DNA of 64,000 bases from an uncultured Pelagibacteraceae bacterium (GTDB lineage: Bacteria; Pseudomonadota; Alphaproteobacteria; Pelagibacterales; Pelagibacteraceae): NCBI GenBank assembly GCA_902628495.1, contig CACONH010000001.1:62001-126000 (forward strand), given 5' to 3'. The first letter of the stretch is position 1. Every line of letters begins with the position of its first letter. Under the pieces are notes generated by a model. That model had not been told where the DNA came from. It searched no databases and saw only the letters and a program-made list of their open reading frames with translations. Made by a program: the position numbers and the translations under genes. Of this stretch, positions 5,291 to 18,316 are shown in pieces.

Positions 5291-8200
5291 CTAACTTGCG
5301 AAACTAACAACTTTATTTGAAATTGGATTTTCCAATTTATCGATCATTTCCTTTGGACAAACTTGTATAAAATTTTCTATTTCTTGATCAAAATTATCAA
5401 TTATTTTTTTTGATAGTAAAGATTCTGTTTCATAATGATGTTCTGTAATCAAATTTTTTAAAAATGATTTCCAATAATCTGTCTCTACCTTTTGCCAAAT
5501 TACTGACTCTGGGTTAACTCTTTTATCGAATTCTTTTTTTGAGTCGTAAATAAAGGCCATTCCGCCTGTCATTCCAGCTCCAAAATTGTCACCTGTTTCA
5601 CCTAAAATTACTATATTGCCTCCTGTCATGTACTCGCAACCATTTGAGTCACAACCCTCAACTACTGCTGTTGCACCTGAATTTCTAACAGCAAATCTTT
5701 CTCCAGCTTGACCTGCTGCAAATAATTTGCCTGAAGTTGCTCCATATAAAACTGTATTACCAATAATTGTATTTTCAAAAGAAATTAGATTACTTTCTTT
5801 TTGAAGTTTTACTACAAGAGTTGCGCCTGAAAGACCCTTTCCAACATAATCGTTTGCATCACCATTTAATATTAGTTTTAAACCTTTAATTCCAAATGCT
5901 CCAAATGATTGGCCTGCAGAACCTTTAAAATTTATTTTTAAAAAACCATCATCCAGAGTTTTATTTTGGAATTTTTTGTATAATTCGTAAGATATTCTTG
6001 TACCAACAGCTCTATCAGTATTCTCAACTAAATACTCATCTTTTAGAGGTGTTTTATTATCTAAGTTATTTAATATCTCCGGCCAGATTTTTTGATCAAC
6101 TGTATCAGGAACATAGTTAATTTTAGGATCTTCACAATACCTTTTGTTTTTACCTGGGTCAGCTTTAACAAACAAAGGGTTAAGATCTAGGTCATCTAGA
6201 TTAGGTGAGCCTTTGCTTATCTGCCTTAGTAAATCAGTTCTTCCAATTATTTCATTAAGTGTTTTAAATCCTAATTCTGCAAGTATTTCTCTAACCTCTT
6301 CAGAGATAAATTTGAATAAATTTACAACTTTATCTGGTGTGCCTGTAAATTTCTTTCTTAACTCATCGTCTTGTGTGCAAACTCCAACCGGACATGTGTT
6401 TGAGTGACATTGTCTTACCATAATGCAACCCATTGCAACTAATGCAGTTGTAGCTACTCCAAATTCCTCTGCTCCCATCATTGCTGCAATGACTACATCT
6501 CTGCCAGTTTTAATTCCTCCATCAGTTCTTAAAGTCACTTGATGTCTTAAATTATTCAAAGTTAAAACTTGGTTAGCTTCAGTCAATCCCATCTCCCATG
6601 GTATACCAACATATTTAACACTTGTTTGTGGTGTTGCTCCTGTACCTCCGTTATGACCGGATATAAGTATAATGTCAGCTTTTGCTTTAGCTACACCTGC
6701 TGCAATTGTGCCAATTCCTGAAGATGCAACGAGTTTTACTCCAACCCTAGCTTTTGGATTAATTTGTTTTAGATCATAAATAAGCTGGGCTAAATCTTCT
6801 ATTGAGTAAATGTCGTGATGCGGAGGTGGAGAAATTAAAGTAACTCCTGGGGTTGAGTGTCTTAGTCTTGCAATTTCTTTTGTGACTTTAAATCCAGGTA
6901 GTTGTCCTCCTTCACCAGGTTTTGCGCCTTGAGCAATTTTTATCTCAATTTCGTTACAATTATTTAAGTAATCAATTGTTACCCCAAATCTAGCTGAAGC
7001 AACTTGTTTTACACGTGAATTAGCACTGTCTCCATTTTCCATTTTTTTAAATCGGGAAGCATCTTCTCCACCCTCACCACTGCACGATGCCCCTTTAATT
7101 CTATTCATGCCAATAGCAAGAGTTTCATGTGCTTCTTTTGATAGGGCGCCATGAGACATGCTTCCGCTGCCAAATCTTTTTTGTATTTCTTCAACCGACT
7201 CTACTAAATCTATAGATATTGGGTTTCTTTTTTTAAAATCGATTAAGTCTCTTAAATTTATAGGTGGTAAATCTTGTATACCTTTAGAATATTTTTTATA
7301 TAAATCGTAGGAGCCTGCAGTCACAGCCGATTGAAGCAAATGAATCAATTTACCTTGGTATTGATGTGTTTCTCCATTTTTTCTATATCTATAAATTCCA
7401 CCAATAGGTAATACATTATTTTCATTGTTAAACGCCTCTTCGTGTATCTTTCTAACTTTTTTTTCAATACCTGTTAATCCAATTCCTGAAATTTTAGACA
7501 AAACACCAGGAAAAAAATCTCTTACAATTGTTCTACTTAGGCCAACAGTTTCAAAATTACATCCACCTCTGTACGAGCTTATCACCGAAATACCCATCTT
7601 CGACATGATTTTTAAAAGACCTAAGTTCACTGATTTCACATATCTTTCAACACACTCCTCATACAGGAATTTGCCAAATAATTTTTTTTCAAATCTTTGA
7701 TACAAACTATCTAGGGCCAAATAAGGATTTACTGTAGTTGCGCCCACTCCTATTAGAGTAGCAAATGAATGTGTATCAAGCGCTTCTCCGGTCTGTACGT
7801 TTATTGAAACATAGCCTCTTAATTTCATTTTTGTTAAATGAGTATGAACAGCACCGATACATAAAAGCATCGGAACAGGATAGTTTTCTTTAGAAACATT
7901 TTTATCACTTAATATTATCTGAGTTACACCTTGTCTTACATAAATTTCAGCCTCTTGCTTGATAGAGTTCAGTTTAGACTCTATGTTTTCATCAGAATTA
8001 AAAGTGCAGTCAATAGTCTTATTATTCTTATCAAAAAAACTTACAAATTTTTCAAATTGATTATTTGTAAGTATAGGACTATTTAAAACGTAAATATTTT
8101 CCTCTGTTAAATTATTAAAATCTAAAATATTACCTAAATTTCCAAATCTAGTTTTTAAACTCATAACCTTATTTTCTCTTAATGAGTCAATTGGAGGATT

Positions 8201-9787
8201 GGTTACTTGACTAAAATTTTGTCTAAAGAAATGGTAAAGTGGTCTGTATTTATTTGATAAGACTGCAAGCGGGGTATCATCTCCCATAGAACCTGTCGCC
8301 TCTTTGGCATCTTCTGCCATCGGGTGAAGTATTAATTCCAAATCCTCTAAACTATATCCAAAACAATGTTGAAGTTTTCTTAAACTGTCTCCTGAAAATA
8401 TATTTTTTTCATTTTTGATAGGTAGTTTTTTATCTAAATCGATGATTTGGTTATTGAAATGTTTATATTCTTTAGCAAGATAATTTTTAATATCTTTATT
8501 ATTAAAGACCTTTCCTTTCTCTATTCTAACTCCTAAAATTTCTCCCGGCCCTAATCTACCTTTAGATATAATTTTCTTTTCATTAAGCTCAATCATTCCA
8601 GTCTCTGAGCCAGCAAAAAGAAGATTATCTTTTGTCAATGTATATCTCATAGGTCTTAAACCGTTACGGTCAGTTGCTACAATTACCCATTCATTATCAG
8701 TGGCTGCAATAGCTGCAGGTCCATCCCAAGGTTCCATTGTACTGTTTAAAAAATTAAATAATTTTTGGTGATCGGCAGGTAGTATTTTACTTTTTTTTGA
8801 CCAAGCATCTGGTATCAACATTAATTTCGCTAAAGGAGCTGGTTGTCCAGAGATATTGAGTATTTCGAAAACATTATCTAATGAAGCAGAGTCTGAATTA
8901 CCACTTGGTATAACTGGTTTTAAATTTTCCATATCCTCAAATATTGGGCTAAACATTTCTTCCTCATGGACTCTCATCCAATTAATATTGCCTTTTAATG
9001 TATTTATCTCTCCATTATGAGCTAAAGCTCTAAATGGCTGGGCTAGGTCCCAACTAGGTGCTGTGTTTGTAGAAAAACGTTGGTGAAAAATTGCATATCT
9101 AGATGTAAATCTCTCGTCTTTTAAATCCAAATAAAAGTCCGATAAAGCTTCAGCAAGAAACATTCCTTTGTAGATGATTGATTTGGAGCTAAATGAACAA
9201 ATATAAAAGTCATTTAAATTCGCCTCTAATATTTTCTTTTCAATTTTTCTTCTAGCTTCATAAAGTTTTATTTCTAATTTTTTACCTTTCTCTTCTTTAA
9301 TATTATGTTTAAAAAGCACTTGCGTAATTTCAGGTCTATTTGACTCTGCTGTTTCACCCAACACTGATGGATCTACTGGAACTTGTCTCCATCCATAAAT
9401 ATTAAAGTTACTTTTTGTTAATTCACTCTCCACAATTGATCTACATTCCTCCTGTGCTGAATAATTATTTCTTGGTAAAAAAAGCATTCCGACACAAACT
9501 TCGGAGTCGTCGTGCTTATGTCCAGTAGCCTCTATTTTTTCAATAAAGAAATCAGAGGGAATTTCTATATGAATACCAGCTCCATCACCTGTTTTTCCAT
9601 CTGCATCAATCGCTCCCCTATGCCAAACAGCTTTTAAAGCTTGAATGCCATACTCAACAACTTTTCTAGATTTTTTTCCATCAGTTGATGCAACTAAACC
9701 AACGCCACAAGCATCATGCTCCATAGATTCATGGTAAACACCTGATTTTTTTAATAAGTCTAAATTTTTTTTTCTTAATTTGTTCAT
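5291..9787 (-). CDS. gltB: Glutamate synthase, large (alpha) subunit
   Basis: Together with GltD it converts glutamine plus 2-oxoglutarate and NADPH into two glutamates, the core of ammonium assimilation. It has 1498 residues, normal for the bacterial alpha subunit. The class II glutaminase domain begins at Cys27 (MEHDACGVGL), which becomes the N-terminal nucleophile after removal of a short propeptide. A central domain and an FMN-binding synthase domain follow, with GEGGEDASRF, GAKPGEGGQLPG and GHNGGTGATP. The [3Fe-4S] ligand region CIMVRQCHSNTCPVGVC lies near 1140, and a C-terminal GXGXG beta-helix follows (SGATAVVEG, MTGGNIVILGETG). It overlaps gltD by 4 nt. Confidence 0.98.
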   Translation of the reverse strand: MNKLRKKNLDLLKKSGVYHESMEHDACGVGLVASTDGKKSRKVVEYGIQALKAVWHRGAIDADGKTGDGAGIHIEIPSDFFIEKIEATGHKHDDSEVCVGMLFLPRNNYSAQEECRSIVESELTKSNFNIYGWRQVPVDPSVLGETAESNRPEITQVLFKHNIKEEKGKKLEIKLYEARRKIEKKILEANLNDFYICSFSSKSIIYKGMFLAEALSDFYLDLKDERFTSRYAIFHQRFSTNTAPSWDLAQPFRALAHNGEINTLKGNINWMRVHEEEMFSPIFEDMENLKPVIPSGNSDSASLDNVFEILNISGQPAPLAKLMLIPDAWSKKSKILPADHQKLFNFLNSTMEPWDGPAAIAATDNEWVIVATDRNGLRPMRYTLTKDNLLFAGSETGMIELNEKKIISKGRLGPGEILGVRIEKGKVFNNKDIKNYLAKEYKHFNNQIIDLDKKLPIKNEKNIFSGDSLRKLQHCFGYSLEDLELILHPMAEDAKEATGSMGDDTPLAVLSNKYRPLYHFFRQNFSQVTNPPIDSLRENKVMSLKTRFGNLGNILDFNNLTEENIYVLNSPILTNNQFEKFVSFFDKNNKTIDCTFNSDENIESKLNSIKQEAEIYVRQGVTQIILSDKNVSKENYPVPMLLCIGAVHTHLTKMKLRGYVSINVQTGEALDTHSFATLIGVGATTVNPYLALDSLYQRFEKKLFGKFLYEECVERYVKSVNLGLLKIMSKMGISVISSYRGGCNFETVGLSRTIVRDFFPGVLSKISGIGLTGIEKKVRKIHEEAFNNENNVLPIGGIYRYRKNGETHQYQGKLIHLLQSAVTAGSYDLYKKYSKGIQDLPPINLRDLIDFKKRNPISIDLVESVEEIQKRFGSGSMSHGALSKEAHETLAIGMNRIKGASCSGEGGEDASRFKKMENGDSANSRVKQVASARFGVTIDYLNNCNEIEIKIAQGAKPGEGGQLPGFKVTKEIARLRHSTPGVTLISPPPHHDIYSIEDLAQLIYDLKQINPKARVGVKLVASSGIGTIAAGVAKAKADIILISGHNGGTGATPQTSVKYVGIPWEMGLTEANQVLTLNNLRHQVTLRTDGGIKTGRDVVIAAMMGAEEFGVATTALVAMGCIMVRQCHSNTCPVGVCTQDDELRKKFTGTPDKVVNLFKFISEEVREILAELGFKTLNEIIGRTDLLRQISKGSPNLDDLDLNPLFVKADPGKNKRYCEDPKINYVPDTVDQKIWPEILNNLDNKTPLKDEYLVENTDRAVGTRISYELYKKFQNKTLDDGFLKINFKGSAGQSFGAFGIKGLKLILNGDANDYVGKGLSGATLVVKLQKESNLISFENTIIGNTVLYGATSGKLFAAGQAGERFAVRNSGATAVVEGCDSNGCEYMTGGNIVILGETGDNFGAGMTGGMAFIYDSKKEFDKRVNPESVIWQKVETDYWKSFLKNLITEHHYETESLLSKKIIDNFDQEIENFIQVCPKEMIDKLENPISNKVVSFAS

Positions 9788-11223
9788 GCTACTTTTAAAT
9801 CTTGTTTTCTTTTTGACTTTAGTAATTTATCTATACTCTCGGCTACATCTCTACCATCTTTAATAGCCCAAACCACAAGCGAAGCGCCTCTTACAATATC
9901 ACCTGCAGCAAAAACTCCTTTTAAATTTGTTTCCATAGTATCAAAATCAATTTTAATTGTTCCCCACTTGGAAACTTGAAGATCTTTTTCATCAAATAAT
10001 TTAGGGAGATCTTCGGGATCAAATCCTAAAGATTTTATAACAATATCAGTCTCAATTTCATATTCAGAGCCTTCATCAATAATTGGTTTTCTCCTTCCAC
10101 CATCGTCAGGATCACCTAGTTTCATCTTATTCACTAAAACCTTTTCAACTTTATTTTTTCCAATAAATTCTTTTGGACCACTTAACCAAACAAATTCAAC
10201 ACCCTCTTCTTCTGCATTAGCAACCTCTCTTGCAGACCCAGGCATATTTTCTTTGTCTCTTCTGTAAAGGCATTTTACAGATTTAGCTTTTTGTCTAACA
10301 GCAGTTCTGACACAATCCATTGCTGTATCACCACCACCAATAACTACTACGTTCTTATCTTTTGCATTTAAGGTTCCGTTCTCAAAATTCTCAACTTTAT
10401 CACCTAAACCTTTTTTATTTGAAGTTGTTAAAAATTCCATTGCTGGAAATATATTTCCAAGATCACTACCTTTAATATCTATTTCTCTAGGTTTATAAAC
10501 ACCTGTAGCAATAAGTATTGCATCGTGCTCTTTTTTTAATTCATCTAAAGTTGCATCTTTTCCAACTTCAAAATTTAATTTAAAATTTATTCCACCATCT
10601 TTTAAAAGTTTAATTCTTCTTTCAACAACTTCTTTCTCAAGTTTAAAATTAGGTATTCCATAAATTAATAAACCTCCTGCACGGTCATAGCGATCGTAAA
10701 CAGTTATTTTGTAACCCTTCTTTCTTAGTTGTTCGGCGCAAGCTAAGCCCGCTGGTCCTGATCCTATTATTCCAATACTTTGATTTAATTCTTTTTCTAT
10801 TTTGATTGGTTTTACCCAACCATTTGCCCAAGCATTATCTGTGATAAATTTTTCTACAGATCCTATTGTAACTGTACCATGACCAGATTGTTCTATTACG
10901 CAATTTCCCTCACATAATCTGTCTTGAGGACAAATTCTACCACAAACCTCAGGCATGTTATTTGTGCTTTGAGCTAAATTATAAGCCTCCTCCAGTCTGC
11001 CCTCAGCTGTTAACTTAAGCCAATCGGGTATGTTATTACTTAAAGGACAATGTACTTGGCAAAATGGAACTCCACATTGAGAACATCGGCTAGACTGTTC
11101 TTGAGCTTTTCCATGAATAAATTCCTTATAGATCTCATTAAAATCATCCTTCCTATTATCGGTATCTCTTTTAGGTGGATTTTGCTGACCTATATTTACG
11201 AATTTGAGCATTTTTTCTGACAT
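9784..11223 (-). CDS. gltD: Glutamate synthase, small (beta) subunit
   Basis: This FAD/NADPH-dependent subunit feeds electrons to GltB. Its 479 residues match the family. The N-terminal cysteine clusters CSQCGVPFCQVHCP (about 43-56) and CGRICPQDRLCEGNC (about 94-108) hold [4Fe-4S] centres. The FAD site GSGPAGLACAEQL follows near 153 and the NADPH site GGGDTAMDC near 298; GVFAAGDIVRG near 435 closes the FAD domain. It is the first gene of the gltD-gltB unit and reads away from uppP across a 170-bp region with a candidate operator. The gltD-before-gltB order is one of the two usual arrangements. Confidence 0.98.
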   Translation of the reverse strand: MSEKMLKFVNIGQQNPPKRDTDNRKDDFNEIYKEFIHGKAQEQSSRCSQCGVPFCQVHCPLSNNIPDWLKLTAEGRLEEAYNLAQSTNNMPEVCGRICPQDRLCEGNCVIEQSGHGTVTIGSVEKFITDNAWANGWVKPIKIEKELNQSIGIIGSGPAGLACAEQLRKKGYKITVYDRYDRAGGLLIYGIPNFKLEKEVVERRIKLLKDGGINFKLNFEVGKDATLDELKKEHDAILIATGVYKPREIDIKGSDLGNIFPAMEFLTTSNKKGLGDKVENFENGTLNAKDKNVVVIGGGDTAMDCVRTAVRQKAKSVKCLYRRDKENMPGSAREVANAEEEGVEFVWLSGPKEFIGKNKVEKVLVNKMKLGDPDDGGRRKPIIDEGSEYEIETDIVIKSLGFDPEDLPKLFDEKDLQVSKWGTIKIDFDTMETNLKGVFAAGDIVRGASLVVWAIKDGRDVAESIDKLLKSKRKQDLKVA

Positions 11224-11393: not shown

Positions 11394-12161
11394 ATGTTGT
11401 TTGATTATTACGAAATTTTAATTCTTTCTTTAATTCAAGGAATTTCAGAATTTATACCAATAAGTTCTTCTGCACATCTTTATATAATTTCAGAATTATT
11501 TGATTTTAAAAATCAATCACTAATGATTGATGTTGGAATGCATTTAGGGTCTCTTTTAGCAGTTCTATTCTATTTCAGACAAGACTTCTTAAATATTCTT
11601 AAAAATAAACAAATTTTAAATTTAATGGTCATTGGATCTATTCCTCTGATTATAGCTGGCTTTATAATTTATACGACAGGTTTAATAGATTTTATAAGAA
11701 ACCTAAAACTGCTTGCTTGGTTATCGTTAATTTTTGCAATAGTACTTTATTTTGCTGATAAAATTAAAGTAACAAAAAAAATAGATACTGATTTGAATTT
11801 AAAAACAATCTTAATTATTGGACTGTTCCAAATTGCTTCTCTTTTTCCTGGGGTAAGTAGATCTGGAATAGTGATAACAGCAGGAAGATTTTTGAATTTT
11901 GATAGATATGATGCTACTAAAATATCTTTTTACTTATCTGTACCAGCAATAGCTGGTGCAAGTTTTTTAAGTTTAAAAGATGTATTTACAAACGAAGCAG
12001 CTTTTAATTCATTAATAATATTATCAATATTCTTATCTTTTATTTTTTCTTATATCACAATTAAATATTTTTTGATCTTCATAAAAAATTTTAATTTTAA
12101 TTTATTTGTAATTTATAGAATTATTTTATCTTTATTTATTTTTTATATTATTTATAGCTAG
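11394..12161 (+). CDS. uppP: Undecaprenyl-diphosphatase
   Basis: This integral membrane enzyme dephosphorylates undecaprenyl pyrophosphate to recycle the lipid carrier for peptidoglycan and other envelope glycans (BacA family). The 255 residues form about seven to eight hydrophobic helices. The two family signatures are present: EFIPISSSAHL (about 18-28) and FPGVSRSGIVITAG (about 150-163), holding the catalytic Glu/Ser/Arg set. It is monocistronic on the plus strand and ends overlapping the convergent EamA gene by 14 bp. Identity is secure from the two motifs. Confidence 0.96.
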   Translation: MLFDYYEILILSLIQGISEFIPISSSAHLYIISELFDFKNQSLMIDVGMHLGSLLAVLFYFRQDFLNILKNKQILNLMVIGSIPLIIAGFIIYTTGLIDFIRNLKLLAWLSLIFAIVLYFADKIKVTKKIDTDLNLKTILIIGLFQIASLFPGVSRSGIVITAGRFLNFDRYDATKISFYLSVPAIAGASFLSLKDVFTNEAAFNSLIILSIFLSFIFSYITIKYFLIFIKNFNFNLFVIYRIILSLFIFYIIYS

Positions 12162-13044
12162 CCTTTTTAATTTCTGGAAGTAACTGTGATAACAGAACTC
12201 CAATTAAAATAAAAACACATCCAAGAATGTTATTTATATTTAAAACTTGACTTAGAATTAGCCATGCAGCAATAGCAGCAAAAACACCTTCTAAAGAATA
12301 TATTATAGCAGCAGGGGCAGGATTAATATTCTTTTGAGCATAAATTTGCAAAACAAATGCAAATCCACCTGATAAAACTCCCGCATAAAGGATTTCGTAT
12401 TTTTCAGATAGTATTTTTTGAATGTTGATTTCCTCAACATAGAGACTAATTAACAACGAGAGAACAGATACAATAAAAGTTTGTACTAAACCAACAGTAA
12501 TTGGGAGCTCAAAACTTTTTACGAGTTCACCTATAAAAATAATATGTAGAGCCCAAAAAAATGCACAAAAAATAACTAACATGTCTCCTTTTCTAACAGT
12601 GGCATCATAAAAATTAGTCAATAAATACCCACCAATTACACATAAAACTACTGAGGGATAAACACTCCAATGAACTTTTTTTTTAAATAAAAAAAGAACT
12701 ATAAAGGGAACCATTGGAACGTAAAAAATTGTAAAAAATGCTGCATTAGCAATATCTGTGTATAATAGAGCAACTTGTTGCAAAGCAGTTCCTAAAAAGA
12801 GAAAAATACCAATTGAAAAAGATAAATATACAAATTTTTTTTTGTCTTTGTTAAACTCTGATGTGAAATTTTTTTTTTCTATCAATAAAAAAATAGGTAA
12901 TAAAGCAAAGAAACCAACCATAAATCTTACGCCATTAAAAGTGTAGGGCCCTATGTTGTCCATACCTGTGTCTTGTGCAATAAAAGTCGTTCCCCAAATA
13001 AAACAACAAAGTAGTGCACTTGCTAGGGAAGTTTTTTTTGTCAT
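12148..13044 (-). CDS. EamA/DMT-family transporter
   Basis: A 298-residue inner-membrane protein with about ten hydrophobic helices arranged as two repeated EamA halves, the layout of drug/metabolite transporters such as RhaT/YdcZ relatives. The first helix begins right at the N-terminus (SALLCCFIWGTTF) and the second repeat begins near 150 (MLVIFCAFFWALHIIF). It lies 4 nt downstream of aceF on the same strand, so it may be co-transcribed with pyruvate dehydrogenase genes. That association is suggestive only; the substrate (amino acid, metabolite or purine) cannot be read from sequence. Confidence 0.88.
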   Translation of the reverse strand: MTKKTSLASALLCCFIWGTTFIAQDTGMDNIGPYTFNGVRFMVGFFALLPIFLLIEKKNFTSEFNKDKKKFVYLSFSIGIFLFLGTALQQVALLYTDIANAAFFTIFYVPMVPFIVLFLFKKKVHWSVYPSVVLCVIGGYLLTNFYDATVRKGDMLVIFCAFFWALHIIFIGELVKSFELPITVGLVQTFIVSVLSLLISLYVEEINIQKILSEKYEILYAGVLSGGFAFVLQIYAQKNINPAPAAIIYSLEGVFAAIAAWLILSQVLNINNILGCVFILIGVLLSQLLPEIKKASYK

Positions 13045-13048
13045 TTAA

Positions 13049-13945
13049 TTATAGTGATAATTTATAAGCGAAATTTTCCCCAAGGTTGTCTTTTAATTCG
13101 TTACAAAATCTTGCTGCATCCGCACCATTAACTACTCTGTGATCATAAGACAAAGATAGTGGAAGCATTAAATTTTTACCTCGTTCTGCTATTTTGCCAA
13201 TACCTAATATTGCAACTTCAGGAGGGTTGATAATCGGTGTAAAAAAAGTCCCGCCAATACCTCCTAAACTTGTAATTGTCATAGAGCCTCCAAAAAATTC
13301 TTTTTTGGCAATTTTTAAATTTCTACATTTTTCACTTATATCCTTAAGTTCAATCGATAAATCTTCTATCTTTTTGCTATCTGCATTTCTTATTTTTGGT
13401 ACCATTAGACCATGCTCTGTATCAACTGCTATTCCTATATGAAAATATTTTTTTAATATAAGTTCATAGCTTTCTTCATCCTTAATAGAACAATTAAAAT
13501 GTGGAAACTTTTTTAAACTATTTACTAAAGCCTTAATAATAAAAGCTAAAGGGGTTATTTTTTTCTTTTCACCAGTAAAATTATCCTTCAGATTTTTTCT
13601 AAAACTTTCAAGTTCAGTAACGTCAGCTTCATCATGGTGAGTTACATGTGGAATTGTTCGCCAAGATTCAGATAAATTTGGTGCTGCCAATCTTTTTATA
13701 CGTGGCATTTGTGTTACTTCTATTTCACCAAACTCACTATGATCAAACTCTAATTTCTTTTTTTCATCTTTTATTGATTTCTTTGGAGGGTTTTCTTGTT
13801 GTTTAATTTGATTTTTTATAAAATTTCGGACATCATCCTCTGTGATCCTGCCATTTCTTTCTGACCCTTTTAACTGAGAAATGTCTGCACCAAGTTGCCT
13901 TGCAAACTTTCTTACCTTTGGACTCGCATGTATAATTTGGTTCAT
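13049..13945 (-). CDS. aceF: Pyruvate dehydrogenase E2 core lacking a lipoyl domain
   Basis: Dihydrolipoamide acetyltransferase transfers acetyl groups from lipoamide to CoA. Only two of the usual three parts are present in these 298 residues: a peripheral-subunit-binding domain at 6-43 (ASPKVRKFARQLGADI ... GRITEDDVRNFI) and the catalytic domain from about 70 to the end. The active-site motif is DHRVVNG with His269; Asn273 stands where many E2s have Asp, a variant also known in the Azotobacter E2. Typical AceF proteins are 400-650 residues with one to three lipoyl domains at the N-terminus. Here there is none, and the lipoyl domain sits on the E1 encoded 2 nt upstream. The catalytic domain looks intact. 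Confidence 0.93.
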   Translation of the reverse strand: MNQIIHASPKVRKFARQLGADISQLKGSERNGRITEDDVRNFIKNQIKQQENPPKKSIKDEKKKLEFDHSEFGEIEVTQMPRIKRLAAPNLSESWRTIPHVTHHDEADVTELESFRKNLKDNFTGEKKKITPLAFIIKALVNSLKKFPHFNCSIKDEESYELILKKYFHIGIAVDTEHGLMVPKIRNADSKKIEDLSIELKDISEKCRNLKIAKKEFFGGSMTITSLGGIGGTFFTPIINPPEVAILGIGKIAERGKNLMLPLSLSYDHRVVNGADAARFCNELKDNLGENFAYKLSL

Positions 13946-13947
13946 TT

Positions 13948-16900
13948 TTATAACTTAGTCGGCATCGGTTTATTTTTATCAATATTGTATTTTTTAATCG
14001 CTTCCTCAGCGTATTTAGATGCAATTAATTGTTCTTTTGAAAGAACACTCAAGGCATAAGTAACAATATATTTTTTATCAACCTCGAAAAAGTTTCTAAG
14101 ATTTTTTCTCGTATCGCTTCTTCCATACCCATCTGTACCAAGGGAATAAAAACTCTTGTTTGTATATGGTCTTATTTGATCAGATGAAATTCTCATATAG
14201 TCTGATGCAGCTAATATAGGTCCTTCAGAATTTTTTAAACATTTTTCTACATACGTTTCTTTAGGTTTCTCATTAGGATTAAGTAAATTATATCTCTCTA
14301 TCTCTAAACCATCTTTTCGTAATTCGTTGTAACTTGTCACGCTCCACACATCAGAATCAATTTTATAATCTTTATTTAATATTTCTGAAGCCTCTAACAT
14401 TTCTCTTAATATTGAACCTGATCCTAAAAGTGTGATTTTTGTTTTTTTATTATTATTTATAGATTTTATCTTATACATTCCTTTTAAAATTGAGTCTTCA
14501 ATACCTTTTTCATTTGGTATTTCTGGATGTGGGTAATTTTCATTTAATGTTGTTACGTAGTAAAAAATATTTTCTTTATTTTCATGCATTCTCTTTAAAC
14601 CATCTCTAAAAATTACAGCTAACTCGTATGCAAAAGTTGGGTCATATGAAACACAGTTTGGGATTGTAGATGCAATAATATGACTATGGCCATCTTGATG
14701 TTGTAAACCTTCACCTGCGAGCGTAGTTCTTCCTGATGTTGCTCCGATTAAAAATCCTCTTGCTTGACTATCTCCAGCAGCCCAAGCAAAATCTCCTACT
14801 CTTTGAAATCCAAACATTGAGTAAAACAGATAAATAGGGATCATTTCAATATCATGGTTTGAATATGCCGTGCCTGCTGCTATCCAAGAAGACATTGAGC
14901 CTGCTTCAGTAATTCCCTCTTCAAGTACTTGTCCTTTTTTGTCTTCTCTATAAGAAGATAATTGTTCTGAGTCTACTGGCTCATACTTTTGTCCTTCGTG
15001 AGCGTATATGCCAATTTTTTGAAAAAAACCTTCCATTCCGAAAGTTCTAGCTTCATCTGGAATGATAGGAACCAATCTTGGAGAAACATTCTTGTCTCTT
15101 AAAAGATTAGTAAGCATTCTAACAAGTGCCATAGTAGTAGACATTTCTTTTGAACCAGTTGATTTCTTAAAGGTCTCAAAAATATCTTTTGGTGGAGCCT
15201 TAATAGGTTTTGCAAAAGTAGATCTTTCAGGAATATTTCCACCAAGTTTAATTCTTCTATCTTTTAAATATTTTATCTCTTCTGAATTTTCATCAGGTTT
15301 ATAATATTGAATATTTTTAACTTGTTCATCTGTTAGTGGAACATCAAACCTATCCCTATAATATAAAAGATCTTTCTCATCTAATTTTTTTTGTTGGTGA
15401 GTTGTATTTATACTTTCTCCTGATTTGCCCATTCCGTAACCTTTTATCGTTTTTGCTATAATAACAGTAGGTTTTCCAATATTGTTAACTGCTTGATGAT
15501 AGGCTGCATAAACTTTATGTGGGTCATGTCCACCTCTGTTAAGTTTCCAAATATCTTGGTCTGTCATAGAAGACACCATATCTTTTAATTCTTTATATTT
15601 TCCGAAGAACTTCTCTCTCACATATGATCCACCTTTAGCTTTAAAAGCTTGGTATTCACCATCAACAGCTTCGTTCATTCTTTTTACTAGCAGACCTTTT
15701 TTGTCATTTGCTAATAATTGATCCCAATAAGAACCCCAAATTACCTTGAGCACATTCCAGCCAGCTCCTCTAAAAATACCCTCAAGTTCTTGGATAATTT
15801 TTCCGTTACCTCTTACTGGTCCATCCAACCTCTGAAGATTGCAATTAACAACAAAAATTAAATTATCTAATTTTTCTCTGGCGGCTAAGCCTATAGCTCC
15901 TAAAGATTCTGGTTCATCCATTTCTCCATCTCCTAAGAAAGCCCAAACCTTTCTACCTTCATCTTTAATGAGACCCCTATTAATCAGGTATTTCATAAAT
16001 CTTGCCTGATAAATTGCAAGCATAGGACCTAATCCCATTGATACAGTTGGAAACTGCCAATACTCTGGCATCAACCATGGATGTGGATAAGATGACAGTC
16101 CACCCGGTTTAACTTCTTGTCTGAAATTATCTAATTGTTTTTCTGTTAATCTTCCTTCAAGATAAGATCTTGCATAAATTCCCGGTGCACTATGACCCTG
16201 AAAATATATTAAATCTCCACCAAATTTATTATTTTTTGCTCTCCAAAAATGGTTCATTCCTACATCGTATAAAGTTGCGGCTGAAGCAAAAGTTCCAATG
16301 TGTCCACCTAATTCTGGGTTTTTTTTATTAGCTCTTACAACCATGGCAGCTGCGTTCCATCTAATTAGAGATCTGATTTTTCGCTCTATATTTTGATCGC
16401 CAGGTAATTTTTTTTCTTCCTCAGGAGGTATTGTATTAATGTACGGAGTATTTCTAGACATTACTAGTCCAGAACCCTCTCTGTATGAATGCTCTATTAA
16501 TTGTCTAATTATATATTGTGCCCGTTCTTTACCATCGCTATTAAGCACTGCAGATAACGACTCAAGCCATTCTTTGGTCTCACTAGGATCTATATCATTT
16601 GTATCTGAGACAATCTCAATTTTTGAATTTTCTAGTTTGGAAGTTTTTTTATTCTCAGAAACTTCTTGTCTGATAATTTTTGGTTCCTCAATTTTTTGTA
16701 TTTTTTCTGCATCACTTATAATTTTTTCTGTATCTTTTGGTATTTCTGTATCTTTTTTAACTTCCTTAACTTCCTCGATTTTTTCACTTCCACCCTCTAC
16801 AGAAATTGAAACTAATTTATCACCTTTTGAAACTTTATCTCCTATCTTGACTGATATGCTTTCTATAATCCCTTCCTCTGTTGATGGTACTTCAACACTA

Positions 16901-17028
16901 GATTTATCACTTTCTAATGTTACTATTGGATCATTAATAGAAATTTTTTGGCCTTGTTTTACTAACAACTCTATAATTTCAACATTTTCAAAATCACCAA
17001 TATCAGGTACTAAAAGATCTTTTTTCAT
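13948..17028 (-). CDS. aceE: Pyruvate dehydrogenase E1 with N-terminal lipoyl domain
   Basis: A homodimer-type E1 (AceE) that decarboxylates pyruvate with thiamine diphosphate. It has 1026 residues against about 885 for E. coli AceE; the excess is N-terminal. Residues 1-77 are a complete biotinyl/lipoyl domain opening VPDIGDFENVEIIELLV, with lipoylation Lys42 in ESDKSSVEVPS. A charged, low-complexity linker follows (about 80-145), then the normal E1 start DIDPSETKEWLESL. The TPP motif GDGEMDEPE is near 369 and strong AceE signatures continue to the end (FGMEGFFQKIGIY, GLQHQDGHSHI). It is co-transcribed with the lipoyl-less aceF. No E3 gene is in the window. Confidence 0.96.
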   Translation of the reverse strand: MKKDLLVPDIGDFENVEIIELLVKQGQKISINDPIVTLESDKSSVEVPSTEEGIIESISVKIGDKVSKGDKLVSISVEGGSEKIEEVKEVKKDTEIPKDTEKIISDAEKIQKIEEPKIIRQEVSENKKTSKLENSKIEIVSDTNDIDPSETKEWLESLSAVLNSDGKERAQYIIRQLIEHSYREGSGLVMSRNTPYINTIPPEEEKKLPGDQNIERKIRSLIRWNAAAMVVRANKKNPELGGHIGTFASAATLYDVGMNHFWRAKNNKFGGDLIYFQGHSAPGIYARSYLEGRLTEKQLDNFRQEVKPGGLSSYPHPWLMPEYWQFPTVSMGLGPMLAIYQARFMKYLINRGLIKDEGRKVWAFLGDGEMDEPESLGAIGLAAREKLDNLIFVVNCNLQRLDGPVRGNGKIIQELEGIFRGAGWNVLKVIWGSYWDQLLANDKKGLLVKRMNEAVDGEYQAFKAKGGSYVREKFFGKYKELKDMVSSMTDQDIWKLNRGGHDPHKVYAAYHQAVNNIGKPTVIIAKTIKGYGMGKSGESINTTHQQKKLDEKDLLYYRDRFDVPLTDEQVKNIQYYKPDENSEEIKYLKDRRIKLGGNIPERSTFAKPIKAPPKDIFETFKKSTGSKEMSTTMALVRMLTNLLRDKNVSPRLVPIIPDEARTFGMEGFFQKIGIYAHEGQKYEPVDSEQLSSYREDKKGQVLEEGITEAGSMSSWIAAGTAYSNHDIEMIPIYLFYSMFGFQRVGDFAWAAGDSQARGFLIGATSGRTTLAGEGLQHQDGHSHIIASTIPNCVSYDPTFAYELAVIFRDGLKRMHENKENIFYYVTTLNENYPHPEIPNEKGIEDSILKGMYKIKSINNNKKTKITLLGSGSILREMLEASEILNKDYKIDSDVWSVTSYNELRKDGLEIERYNLLNPNEKPKETYVEKCLKNSEGPILAASDYMRISSDQIRPYTNKSFYSLGTDGYGRSDTRKNLRNFFEVDKKYIVTYALSVLSKEQLIASKYAEEAIKKYNIDKNKPMPTKL

Positions 17029-17096
17029 TATTTGAAGCTATATTTATAACATATTTATATCTTTTTTTTGACATCCTTAAATATGAAAGTATTAAA

Positions 17097-17213
17097 ATGA
17101 TTAATTTATTAAAAAAATTATTATTAAAAAGAGATAATAGCAAAAAATTTGATGCAAGAGTATGGATACAATTGGCGCTATTAAATAAGAACTTAAAATC
17201 TTTAAAATATTAA
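17097..17213 (+). CDS. Candidate small basic protein (38 aa)
   Basis: A 38-codon open frame starts at ATG 17097 between aceE and the thiolase gene and ends TAA at 17213, overlapping the thiolase stop by 4 bp. The peptide is Lys/Leu-rich with a protein-like core DARVWIQLALLNKN. A TTGACA hexamer at 17068-17073 is upstream, but 17-bp spacing would put the -10 directly on the ATG, which argues against that promoter serving this frame. No homologue is recognised. In such AT-rich DNA a chance frame of this size is possible. Confidence 0.35.
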   Translation: MINLLKKLLLKRDNSKKFDARVWIQLALLNKNLKSLKY

Positions 17214-18316
17214 TCGCGAGCAATACACATAGAAATACCCATACCACCACCTATACAAAGAGTAACTAAACCTTTTTTATTATCTCTTTTGATCATTTCA
17301 TGAATTAATGTGACTATCAATCTTGCACCTGATGCTCCGATTGGATGACCTATAGCAATTGCTCCTCCATTAACATTTAACTTTTCTTTAGGAATTTTAA
17401 GCTCTTTAACAACTGCAATTGTTTGTGCAGCAAAAGCTTCATTACACTCTATTAAATCTAAATCATTTATACTCCAACCAGCAATTTCAAGAGCTTTTGT
17501 AGAGGACGGAATAGGTCCCAAACCCATTAAAGTTGGATCAACTCCAGAAGTGGCCCAAGAAACAATTTTTGCTTGGATATCTAAATTTTTTTTCTCTGCT
17601 AAATCTCTTGTGGTAAGTAATACACCGGCTGCACCATCGTTTATACCAGATGAGTTACCAGCAGTAACAGTACCTTCTTTTTTAAAAGCAGGTTTTAACT
17701 TTTTTAGATTTTCAATATTTAAATTAAACCTTGGGTGTTCGTCTTGATTATTATCAATTATTTCATTTAAAAATTTTTTGCTTTTGATTGAACTTTCTGT
17801 TTTAGATTGTGAGTCTAGTGCAAAATAATCTTGTTCATCTCTTGAAATATTAAATTTCTCTGCAACATTTTCTGCAGTTACACCCATATGGTAATTGTTA
17901 AAAGCATCAATTAAACCATTTGTTAACATTTCTTTCTCATCTGAATTTGACATACTTTCTTGCCCACCAGCGATAACAAATTTTGATGAGCCCATAGCAA
18001 TTGACTGGTATCCTAAAACAATAGCTCTTAGTCCTGATCCACAAACTTGATTAATATTAAAAGCAGTTTTCTCTTTAGGGATTCCAGATTTTATTAAGGC
18101 TTGTCTTGCAGGATTTTGTCCGCCTAAACTTGGTAAAACTTGGCCAAGTATGACTTCATCTATCTCTAGCGGATCTAAGTTGGTTTTTTTTAAAATACCT
18201 TTTATAACAATTGAGCCTAATTCATGGGCTTGAAGTTTCTTATGAATGCCACCGAATTTGCCTACTGATGTTCTCAAGGCAGATGTTAAAACTATATCTT
18301 TAGAATTTTTTGACAT
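17210..18316 (-). CDS. Acetyl-CoA acetyltransferase (thiolase), short form
   Basis: A type II thiolase that condenses two acetyl-CoA or cleaves beta-ketoacyl-CoA. Cys92 in NQVCGSGLRA is the nucleophile. NEAFAAQ near 293, GGAIAIGHPIGASGAR near 318 and the second catalytic Cys in CIGGGMG near 355 are all present. The length is 368, about 25 shorter than the usual 390-395. The missing part falls between GGQESMSNS and DGL/NGLIDAF (about 118-130), where relatives carry an extra loop before the YHMG-TAEN segment. The residue set still looks catalytic. Whether the role is degradative (FadA/AtoB) or PHB-type (PhaA) is undecided; no partner genes adjoin it. Confidence 0.93.
   Translation of the reverse strand: MSKNSKDIVLTSALRTSVGKFGGIHKKLQAHELGSIVIKGILKKTNLDPLEIDEVILGQVLPSLGGQNPARQALIKSGIPKEKTAFNINQVCGSGLRAIVLGYQSIAMGSSKFVIAGGQESMSNSDEKEMLTNGLIDAFNNYHMGVTAENVAEKFNISRDEQDYFALDSQSKTESSIKSKKFLNEIIDNNQDEHPRFNLNIENLKKLKPAFKKEGTVTAGNSSGINDGAAGVLLTTRDLAEKKNLDIQAKIVSWATSGVDPTLMGLGPIPSSTKALEIAGWSINDLDLIECNEAFAAQTIAVVKELKIPKEKLNVNGGAIAIGHPIGASGARLIVTLIHEMIKRDNKKGLVTLCIGGGMGISMCIARD

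Follow-up and report, generated by a model that had tools for sequence, protein, structure and literature searches.

Pyruvate dehydrogenase in Pelagibacteraceae: an E1 that very probably supplies the swinging lipoyl arms to an E2 core with none

The pyruvate dehydrogenase (PDH) complex is the textbook swinging-arm machine, with the lipoyl arm carried on its acetyltransferase, E2; even where a lipoyl-bearing E1-beta chain occurs, the E2 that partners it keeps a lipoyl domain of its own. In Escherichia coli, as passages of PMC8421416 describe, E2 has three lipoyl domains – 72 per 24-mer core – and its subunit-binding domain recruits both E1 and E3. The E3 of Alcaligenes eutrophus, Neisseria meningitidis and Mycoplasma hyopneumoniae has a lipoyl domain, according to excerpts of PMC7873978; that a partner of E2 can bear the arm is already known in principle. 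The subject of this article is a pair of adjacent genes for PDH E1 and E2 in a 64,000-nucleotide stretch of DNA from an uncultured Pelagibacteraceae bacterium (assembly GCA_902628495.1, contig CACONH010000001.1, positions 62,001 to 126,000 of the forward strand; hereafter the window), in which E1 carries a lipoyl domain and E2 does not. On the comparisons set out below, we consider it very likely that the pair forms a working PDH operon, whose E1 bears swinging lipoyl arms and supplies all of them to an E2 core that has none.

The gene pair and its domains

An earlier note on this DNA, made without database searches, had described an E2 limited to its subunit-binding and catalytic domains, next to an AceE-type E1 with a complete N-terminal lipoyl domain and a flexible charged linker. 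The features of the pair are as follows.

13948..17028, minus strand: AceE-type pyruvate dehydrogenase E1 with N-terminal lipoyl domain, 1026 residues, stop codon included (open reading frame; Pfam and TIGR00759 matches)
16789..17028, minus strand: E1 lipoyl domain, residues 1–80 (Pfam Biotin_lipoyl match over 5–75; all-beta model)
16903..16905, minus strand: codon of Lys42, the predicted lipoylation site, in ESDKSS (motif read; alignment to the DK lysines of E. coli AceF)
16603..16788, minus strand: charged linker of E1, residues 81–142 (31 of 62 residues D, E, K or R)
16459..16602, minus strand: E1 segment 143–190 (its part 143–184 homologous to the AceE N-terminal fragment in 9h1n)
13951..16602, minus strand: AceE part of E1, residues 143–1026 (TIGR00759; alignment to E. 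coli E1, 1l8a)
13049..13945, minus strand: lipoyl-less E2 (dihydrolipoyl acetyltransferase), 298 residues, stop codon included (open reading frame; Pfam matches)
13826..13933, minus strand: E2 peripheral subunit-binding domain, residues about 5–40 (Pfam E3_binding)
13082..13726, minus strand: E2 catalytic domain, residues about 74–288, with the DHRVVNG motif and Arg82 (Pfam 2-oxoacid_dh; alignment to AceF, 7b9k)

Residues 5–75 of E1 match the Pfam family Biotin_lipoyl (PF00364) at 60.6 bits, against a cut-off of 22.1, and the DK motif is present in the hairpin of the domain, with Lys42 lying in ESDKSSVEVPS; the lipoyl domain is therefore as complete as the earlier note had supposed. Residues 143–1024 match TIGR00759 (aceE) at 1434.8 bits (cut-off 859.9), as expected of a homodimeric, AceE-type E1, and residues 144–1023 align with E. 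coli E1 (1l8a). In that alignment His 243, 279 and 544, counted by hand, stand opposite E. coli His 106, 142 and 407, which we take to be catalytic residues. Against the model of an E1-beta with a lipoyl domain (PRK11892), E1 scores 20.4 bits, below the cut-off of 454, and over residues 13–128 only.

In E2, the E3_binding (PF02817) and 2-oxoacid_dh (PF00198) matches both exceed the Pfam cut-offs, and the Pfam search returned no lipoyl match, with nothing ahead of the subunit-binding domain – again in agreement with the earlier note. The match to TIGR01348 begins only at model position 283 and reaches 328.8 bits, below the cut-off of 552.1; together with the missing lipoyl match, this sets the protein apart from a canonical AceF, which has at least one N-terminal lipoyl domain. 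Nor does it belong with PRK11857, a dihydrolipoamide acetyltransferase model of 308 positions that it resembles in length alone (177.2 bits, below the cut-off of 378). The DHR motif is kept as DHRVVNG; the E2p of Azotobacter likewise has Asn in this region. The two genes are separate open reading frames on the minus strand, with 2 nucleotides between the E1 stop and the E2 start, as stated before; since, in addition, E1 is of the AceE type, the pair is no E2–E1 fusion of the OdhA kind.

Lipoyl domains in the genome, the family and beyond

Whether E1 could be the only carrier of PDH arms depends on the rest of the genome, of which 1.0 Mb is available in 17 contigs. A genome-wide profile search finds three Biotin_lipoyl matches: E1 itself; SucB, a protein of 444 residues with lipoyl and acyltransferase domains, behind an E1o-like frame; and AccB, of 138 residues, adjoining a biotin-carboxylase-like frame (both named by eye from the open reading frames). 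The 2-oxoacid_dh profile matches SucB and the bare PDH E2 only, so that no second PDH E2 was found in this genome, which is 91.7% complete. A single full-scoring E3 is present, as a 470-residue frame directly behind SucB and without a lipoyl match. The genes for LipB and LipA are both there, which only makes lipoylation of E1 possible.

Because the source genome is incomplete, the lipoyl search was repeated in 21 other genomes with a bare E2, all at least 90% complete and the best 99%. A lipoyl-bearing PDH E2 elsewhere was found by the lipoyl profile in none of them (21/21), and the clear matches lie only in frames of the size of SucB, AccB and E1. The departures from this pattern are few: G184 has two lipoyl-type frames instead of three, G155 and G067 each have one additional weak, partial match in a 447-residue frame, and in G193 the E1 lipoyl domain occupies a separate 116-residue frame, indicating a frame break in E1. 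There is no sign of a second lipoyl-bearing aceF in the bare-E2 genomes – a copy that the earlier note had named as a possible refutation – and its proposal that E1 carries the only PDH arms is well supported, no other lipoyl-bearing PDH component having appeared in the window's own genome or in these 21. An assembly error, its other concern, is excluded by the occurrence of the same E1–E2 pair on other contigs in near relatives whose E1 is 94–98% identical.

The domain search across Pelagibacterales and other Alphaproteobacteria that the earlier note had suggested bears it out as well. The loci named here are the best 80 of 526 relatives from a protein search, a sample that leans toward the window's kin; all 80 are titled Pelagibacteraceae or Candidatus Pelagibacter, and the nearest E1 is 98% identical, relatives that indicate a SAR11 origin for the window. 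Every one of them (80/80) has the lipoyl domain on E1, while the neighbouring E2, in view for 78, is without a lipoyl domain in 46 and with one in 32 (an alternative count of 47 bare E2s out of 79 presumably stems from the acceptance of shorter frames, including the cut E2 of L055). An even draw across the order comprised 148 genomes at least 90% complete, of which 127 matched E2 and 122 gave usable frames, G169, G043, G172, G174 and G185 being left out owing to a cut frame or a match that was only SucB-like. By frame length, and with all cases scanned for lipoyl domains, E2 is bare in 22 of the 122 – 21 in the window's genus and one, G100, in another. The remaining 100 frames are of lipoyl-bearing length, and the domain was present in all 34 of those examined. 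Together with the 21 other bare-E2 genomes, the 34 selected ones make up 55 family genomes that were fetched, a hand-picked set whose proportions are meaningless. Across the 80 named loci, these 55 genomes and the window, the E1 lipoyl domain is in frame in 135 of 136, the exception being G193.

Counted on E1 and E2 respectively, the lipoyl domains of the family are arranged as 1 + 1 and 1 + 0, and further as 2 + 1, 1 + 2 and 2 + 2 in genera g4, g5 and g6. Two tandem domains occur on E1 in frames of 1111–1131 residues at L174 and L175 (G021, G024) and at L179 and L180 (G107, G166). At L176–L179 (G025, G065, G119, G107; genera g5/g6), a second lipoyl-like domain of E2 has no lipoyl lysine; three of these four were included in a tree of lipoyl domains, where they form long branches, and the domain may be a decayed or repurposed one. 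In the f2 family of the same order (G013–G020 and others), no E2 match was obtained at the threshold used, and its genomes are absent among the AceE matches listed.

Where E1 stands beside E2 and is uncut, no case without the lipoyl domain was seen; in two, a frame break detaches the domain from the remainder of E1. Of seven genomes examined for their short E1 frames, six have a frame that runs off the contig. G363, the remaining one, encodes the lipoyl domain separately, immediately upstream of the E1 frame, and so adds to the frame break already noted in G193. The loci concerned, L167 (G193:C7:63200-69500) and L266 (G363:C1:397000-402500), have a frame shift, a split gene or a sequencing error, and both breaks are possibly sequencing errors.

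A further, lipoyl-free AceE is found in many genomes of the family. The 37 genomes examined have 25 full-length copies of this kind, with 53–55% identity to the window's E1, and G021 has another (L223, G021:C1:8000-15000); such copies are about 884–902 residues long, and by hand count 27 genomes among those listed have two AceE matches. Each of the 22 bare-E2 genomes has a single AceE match (22/22), and the lipoyl-free second AceE was seen solely alongside an E2 whose frame, in the cases read, is long enough to include a lipoyl domain. This pattern fits a reading in which E1 carries the arm, albeit among close relatives that are not independent cases. Passages of PMC10030771 report aceEF and extra aceE copies for SAR11 subclade IIIa and, as far as they go, mention no lipoyl domain.

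Outside the family, AceE-type E1 was found in 12 of 387 genomes sampled from the class: six are Pelagibacteraceae with the lipoyl domain in the E1 frame, and six are others without it. In the latter six operons, lipoyl domains are borne by E2 and by one more neighbour, presumed to be E3 (five by length, one a fragment). In the outgroup AceE operons at L213–L217, L219 and L222, a lipoyl-bearing E2 is accompanied by a neighbour of E3 length that has one or two lipoyl domains of its own. Lipoyl domains seem to migrate often among the parts of PDH. In a sample of the phylum, AceE was matched at E 1e-60 in 184 of 397 genomes; among the rows listed, only two, both Pelagibacteraceae, match from model position 1–4, and the next earliest listed begins at 63 and reads through a stop codon. 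A scan of the five longest outsider AceE frames listed found no lipoyl domain, the phylum search being one that hides weaker separate matches. Judged from these samples, the lipoyl–E1 fusion looks like a Pelagibacteraceae trait within Pseudomonadota.

A working arm on E1 and the rival explanations

Several lines of evidence suggest that the E1 domain works as a lipoyl arm. The motif SDKSS stands at the lipoyl lysine in all 139 E1 lipoyl domains examined, Lys42 aligns with the DK lysines of the three lipoyl domains of E. coli AceF, and the solved relatives that score best against the domain are lipoyl domains from PDH E2 and from E3s that carry one. Over 21 pairs among seven close relatives, the lipoyl domain has a median dN/dS of 0.092, lower than that of the linker (0.228) and higher than that of residues 191–1026 (0.034); these values are rough, with few substitutions in the short segments, and the E1 lipoyl domain is under purifying selection. 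AlphaFold models residues 1–80 as all-beta with a pLDDT of 72–88, and the modelled domain superposes on the lipoyl domain 1iyu with a TMt of 0.83 and an rmsd of 1.3. The linker, half of it charged (31/62), is mostly of low confidence, as for a flexible stretch, which accords with its description in the earlier note.

The segment beyond the linker provides a possible link to E2. Residues 143–184 of E1 match the AceE N-terminal fragment in the structure 9h1n, the chain A of which is an AceF fragment matched by the subunit-binding domain of the window's E2; a further structure, 4qoy, is titled as one of PDH and acetyltransferase with a novel binding motif. The arm would thus most likely be tied, via the linker, to the very segment by which E1 holds E2. 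Residues at which an arm meets the core also appear to be kept: in E. coli, according to passages of PMC8421416, Arg407 of E2 contacts E242 and D244 of a lipoyl domain. The window's E2 has Arg82 at the position of Arg407 (invariant in the 11 bare E2s examined), and E1 has Glu39 and Asp41 at those of E242 and D244 (invariant in the 16 E1s examined), so that the E1-borne arm keeps the residues with which an E. coli lipoyl domain meets the entrance to the E2 active site.

The following mechanism can be proposed. LipB and LipA would lipoylate Lys42 of E1, which would dock by its N-terminal segment onto the subunit-binding domain of E2, the 62-residue charged linker joining the arm to the docking segment. 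Each bound E1 dimer would bring two arms, none belonging to the core; E1 would acetylate its own or a neighbour's arm, which would swing to E2 and pass the acetyl group to CoA, after which the shared E3, bound at another subunit-binding domain, would re-oxidise the arm. The number of arms would then be set by the number of bound E1 dimers rather than by the E2 core. More broadly, we think it probable – with somewhat less confidence than for the operon itself – that PDH in a whole family of ocean bacteria works with arms tethered to E1, several lineages having an armless E2 core, such that arm number would depend on E1 occupancy, E2 and E3 alone would not turn over, and the arm on E2 would be dispensable even with an AceE-type E1.

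Other explanations have to be weighed against E1 as supplier of all arms. PDH E1 and the bare E2 might borrow the arms of SucB in trans, in a mixed complex of PDH and 2-oxoglutarate dehydrogenase (OGDH), with the E1 domain as an auxiliary. SucB has a normal lipoyl domain and adjoins the only full-scoring E3, and passages of PMC7568260 and PMC10415282 describe lipoyl use in trans, from AceF, for C. glutamicum OdhA; yet the E1 domain, with its invariant SDKSS and low dN/dS, is the only PDH-linked lipoyl domain in the bare lineages, and we regard such borrowing as improbable. Conceivable, too, given that the domain is joined to the presumed E2-docking segment, is a function in docking or regulation instead of acyl transfer, but the lipoyl lysine is invariant in E1, whereas the lysine-less second E2 domain of the four g5/g6 loci illustrates what a domain freed from lipoylation looks like, which leaves this role rather less probable still. 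As for the bare E2 being truncated or mis-called, or the E1 fusion an assembly error, E2 is indeed short and begins just past the E1 stop; against this stand the same pair in many other genomes, bare E2s in several lineages, the retained catalytic motif and aligned Arg, and a six-frame scan of window positions 12001–18000 (frames of at least 70 residues) that found no lipoyl domain but that of E1. We give such an artefact hardly any credence.

There are, nonetheless, observations that weigh against E1 as the sole supplier of arms. The source genome is just 91.7% complete, and PDH could conceivably draw on the lipoyl domain of SucB in trans. A frame break separates the lipoyl domain from the rest of E1 in G193, whose E2 is bare, and in G363. 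The many relatives with a lipoyl-free second AceE show that the family does not depend on the domain for every AceE it has. The AlphaFold models, finally, are poor for E1 outside the lipoyl domain (mean pLDDT 40.6) and for E2 (52.4).

Around the E1 and E2 genes, a search for RNA elements gave a single match, far under its gathering score. Elsewhere in the window, large open reading frames on the minus strand at 5291–11223 resemble both subunits of glutamate synthase, and an undecaprenyl-diphosphatase-like frame at 11394–12161 adjoins them (all named by eye).

History of the domain and comparison with known systems

The earlier note had spoken of a lipoyl domain moved from E2 to E1. The domain is on E1, and absent from the window's E2, as it said; a one-event move is rejected, however, as most relatives carry the domain on both chains, and the history is rather one of copying followed by repeated loss. 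A tree of 146 rows, built from the joined E1 and E2 cores with the lipoyl domains excluded, holds all 134 family rows together, and its earliest branches have a lipoyl-bearing E2. It implies a minimum of 7 changes in E2 lipoyl presence; a 54-row IQ-TREE analysis gives 8, at least 5 of them forced by the well-supported (starred) branches alone. The bare E2s have differing short N-termini directly ahead of the subunit-binding domain, as expected of separate deletions.

The lipoyl domains themselves were compared in a tree of 78 columns and 84 hand-picked rows, with SucB set as outgroup and the tree therefore uninformative on SucB. A single starred clade (97/96) unites the family's E1 domains with its first E2 domains and leaves the outgroup domains outside; within it the two are partly intermixed, in an inner order that is not trusted. 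On this evidence, the E1 and E2 domains were copied one from the other, and since in the outgroups the domain is on E2 but not on E1, copying from PDH E2 to E1 appears more likely than the reverse. One position separates the types, with VPDIG in 133 of 135 E1 domains (L097, L167 and L177 omitted) and VPNIG in 60 of 66 first E2 domains. By this difference, a regain of the E2 domain through copying from E1 is disfavoured. The order of some early losses is ambiguous, insofar as, at one fork, two losses may be no more parsimonious than a loss followed by a regain. As read from these trees, E1 had received its copy of the arm by the time the sampled family began to diverge, and several lineages afterwards lost the one on E2. 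A longer E1 linker in bare-E2 lineages was also considered (medians 68 residues, n=67, and 58 residues, n=58) and was set aside, because 5 well-supported independent pairs cannot show such a link.

The family offers a natural series, from arms on both E2 and E1 to arms on E1 alone in separate lineages, with close relatives in both states. The series allows tests of whether attachment of the arm to the core is necessary, and of how the rate depends on arm number and on E1 binding; it also bears on how streamlined genomes trim their complexes. An annotation that gives only the gene names (aceE, aceF) conceals the arrangement.

In the open-licence PMC literature on the arrangement, on SAR11 PDH and on docking, of which passages were covered (including PMC7494870 and PMC11109978), an AceE-type E1 with its own lipoyl domain, adjoining a bare E2, with graded and repeated loss in one family, is not described. 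The locus nevertheless has several known counterparts in part. Like E. coli PDH (AceE, AceF, Lpd), it has a homodimeric, AceE-type E1 and an E2 with subunit-binding and catalytic domains; unlike there, its E1 has a lipoyl domain and its E2 has none, the solved E. coli E1 beginning at the segment that follows the window's linker.

A lipoyl domain at the N terminus of an E1 chain is shared with the E1-beta of the Zymomonas mobilis type (PRK11892), the start of whose model the window's domain matches, but that E1 consists of two chains and is not AceE. The Zymomonas subunit in question is presumably PdhB, a name that differs from the PdhA of the paper cited next. Passages of PMC7873978 put the lipoyl domain of Zymomonas on an E1 subunit named PdhA.

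In M. hyopneumoniae, the PDH lipoyl domain likewise sits on a partner instead of E2, except that the carrier is E3 (PdhD), lipoylated at K42 according to the same passages of PMC7873978, and not E1. The lipoyl-bearing E3 of Neisseria and Alcaligenes resembles the window's E1 as a carrier other than E2 and differs in the same way, while the six outgroup alphaproteobacterial AceE operons have a presumed lipoyl-bearing E3 but an E2 that retains its own lipoyl domain or domains. Finally, in actinobacterial OdhA, an E2o–E1o fusion, an acyltransferase domain uses lipoyl groups of another chain, as passages of PMC7568260 and PMC10415282 describe and as we propose for the window's E2; there, however, the arms come from PDH E2, and OdhA does not consist of an E1 to which an arm was added.

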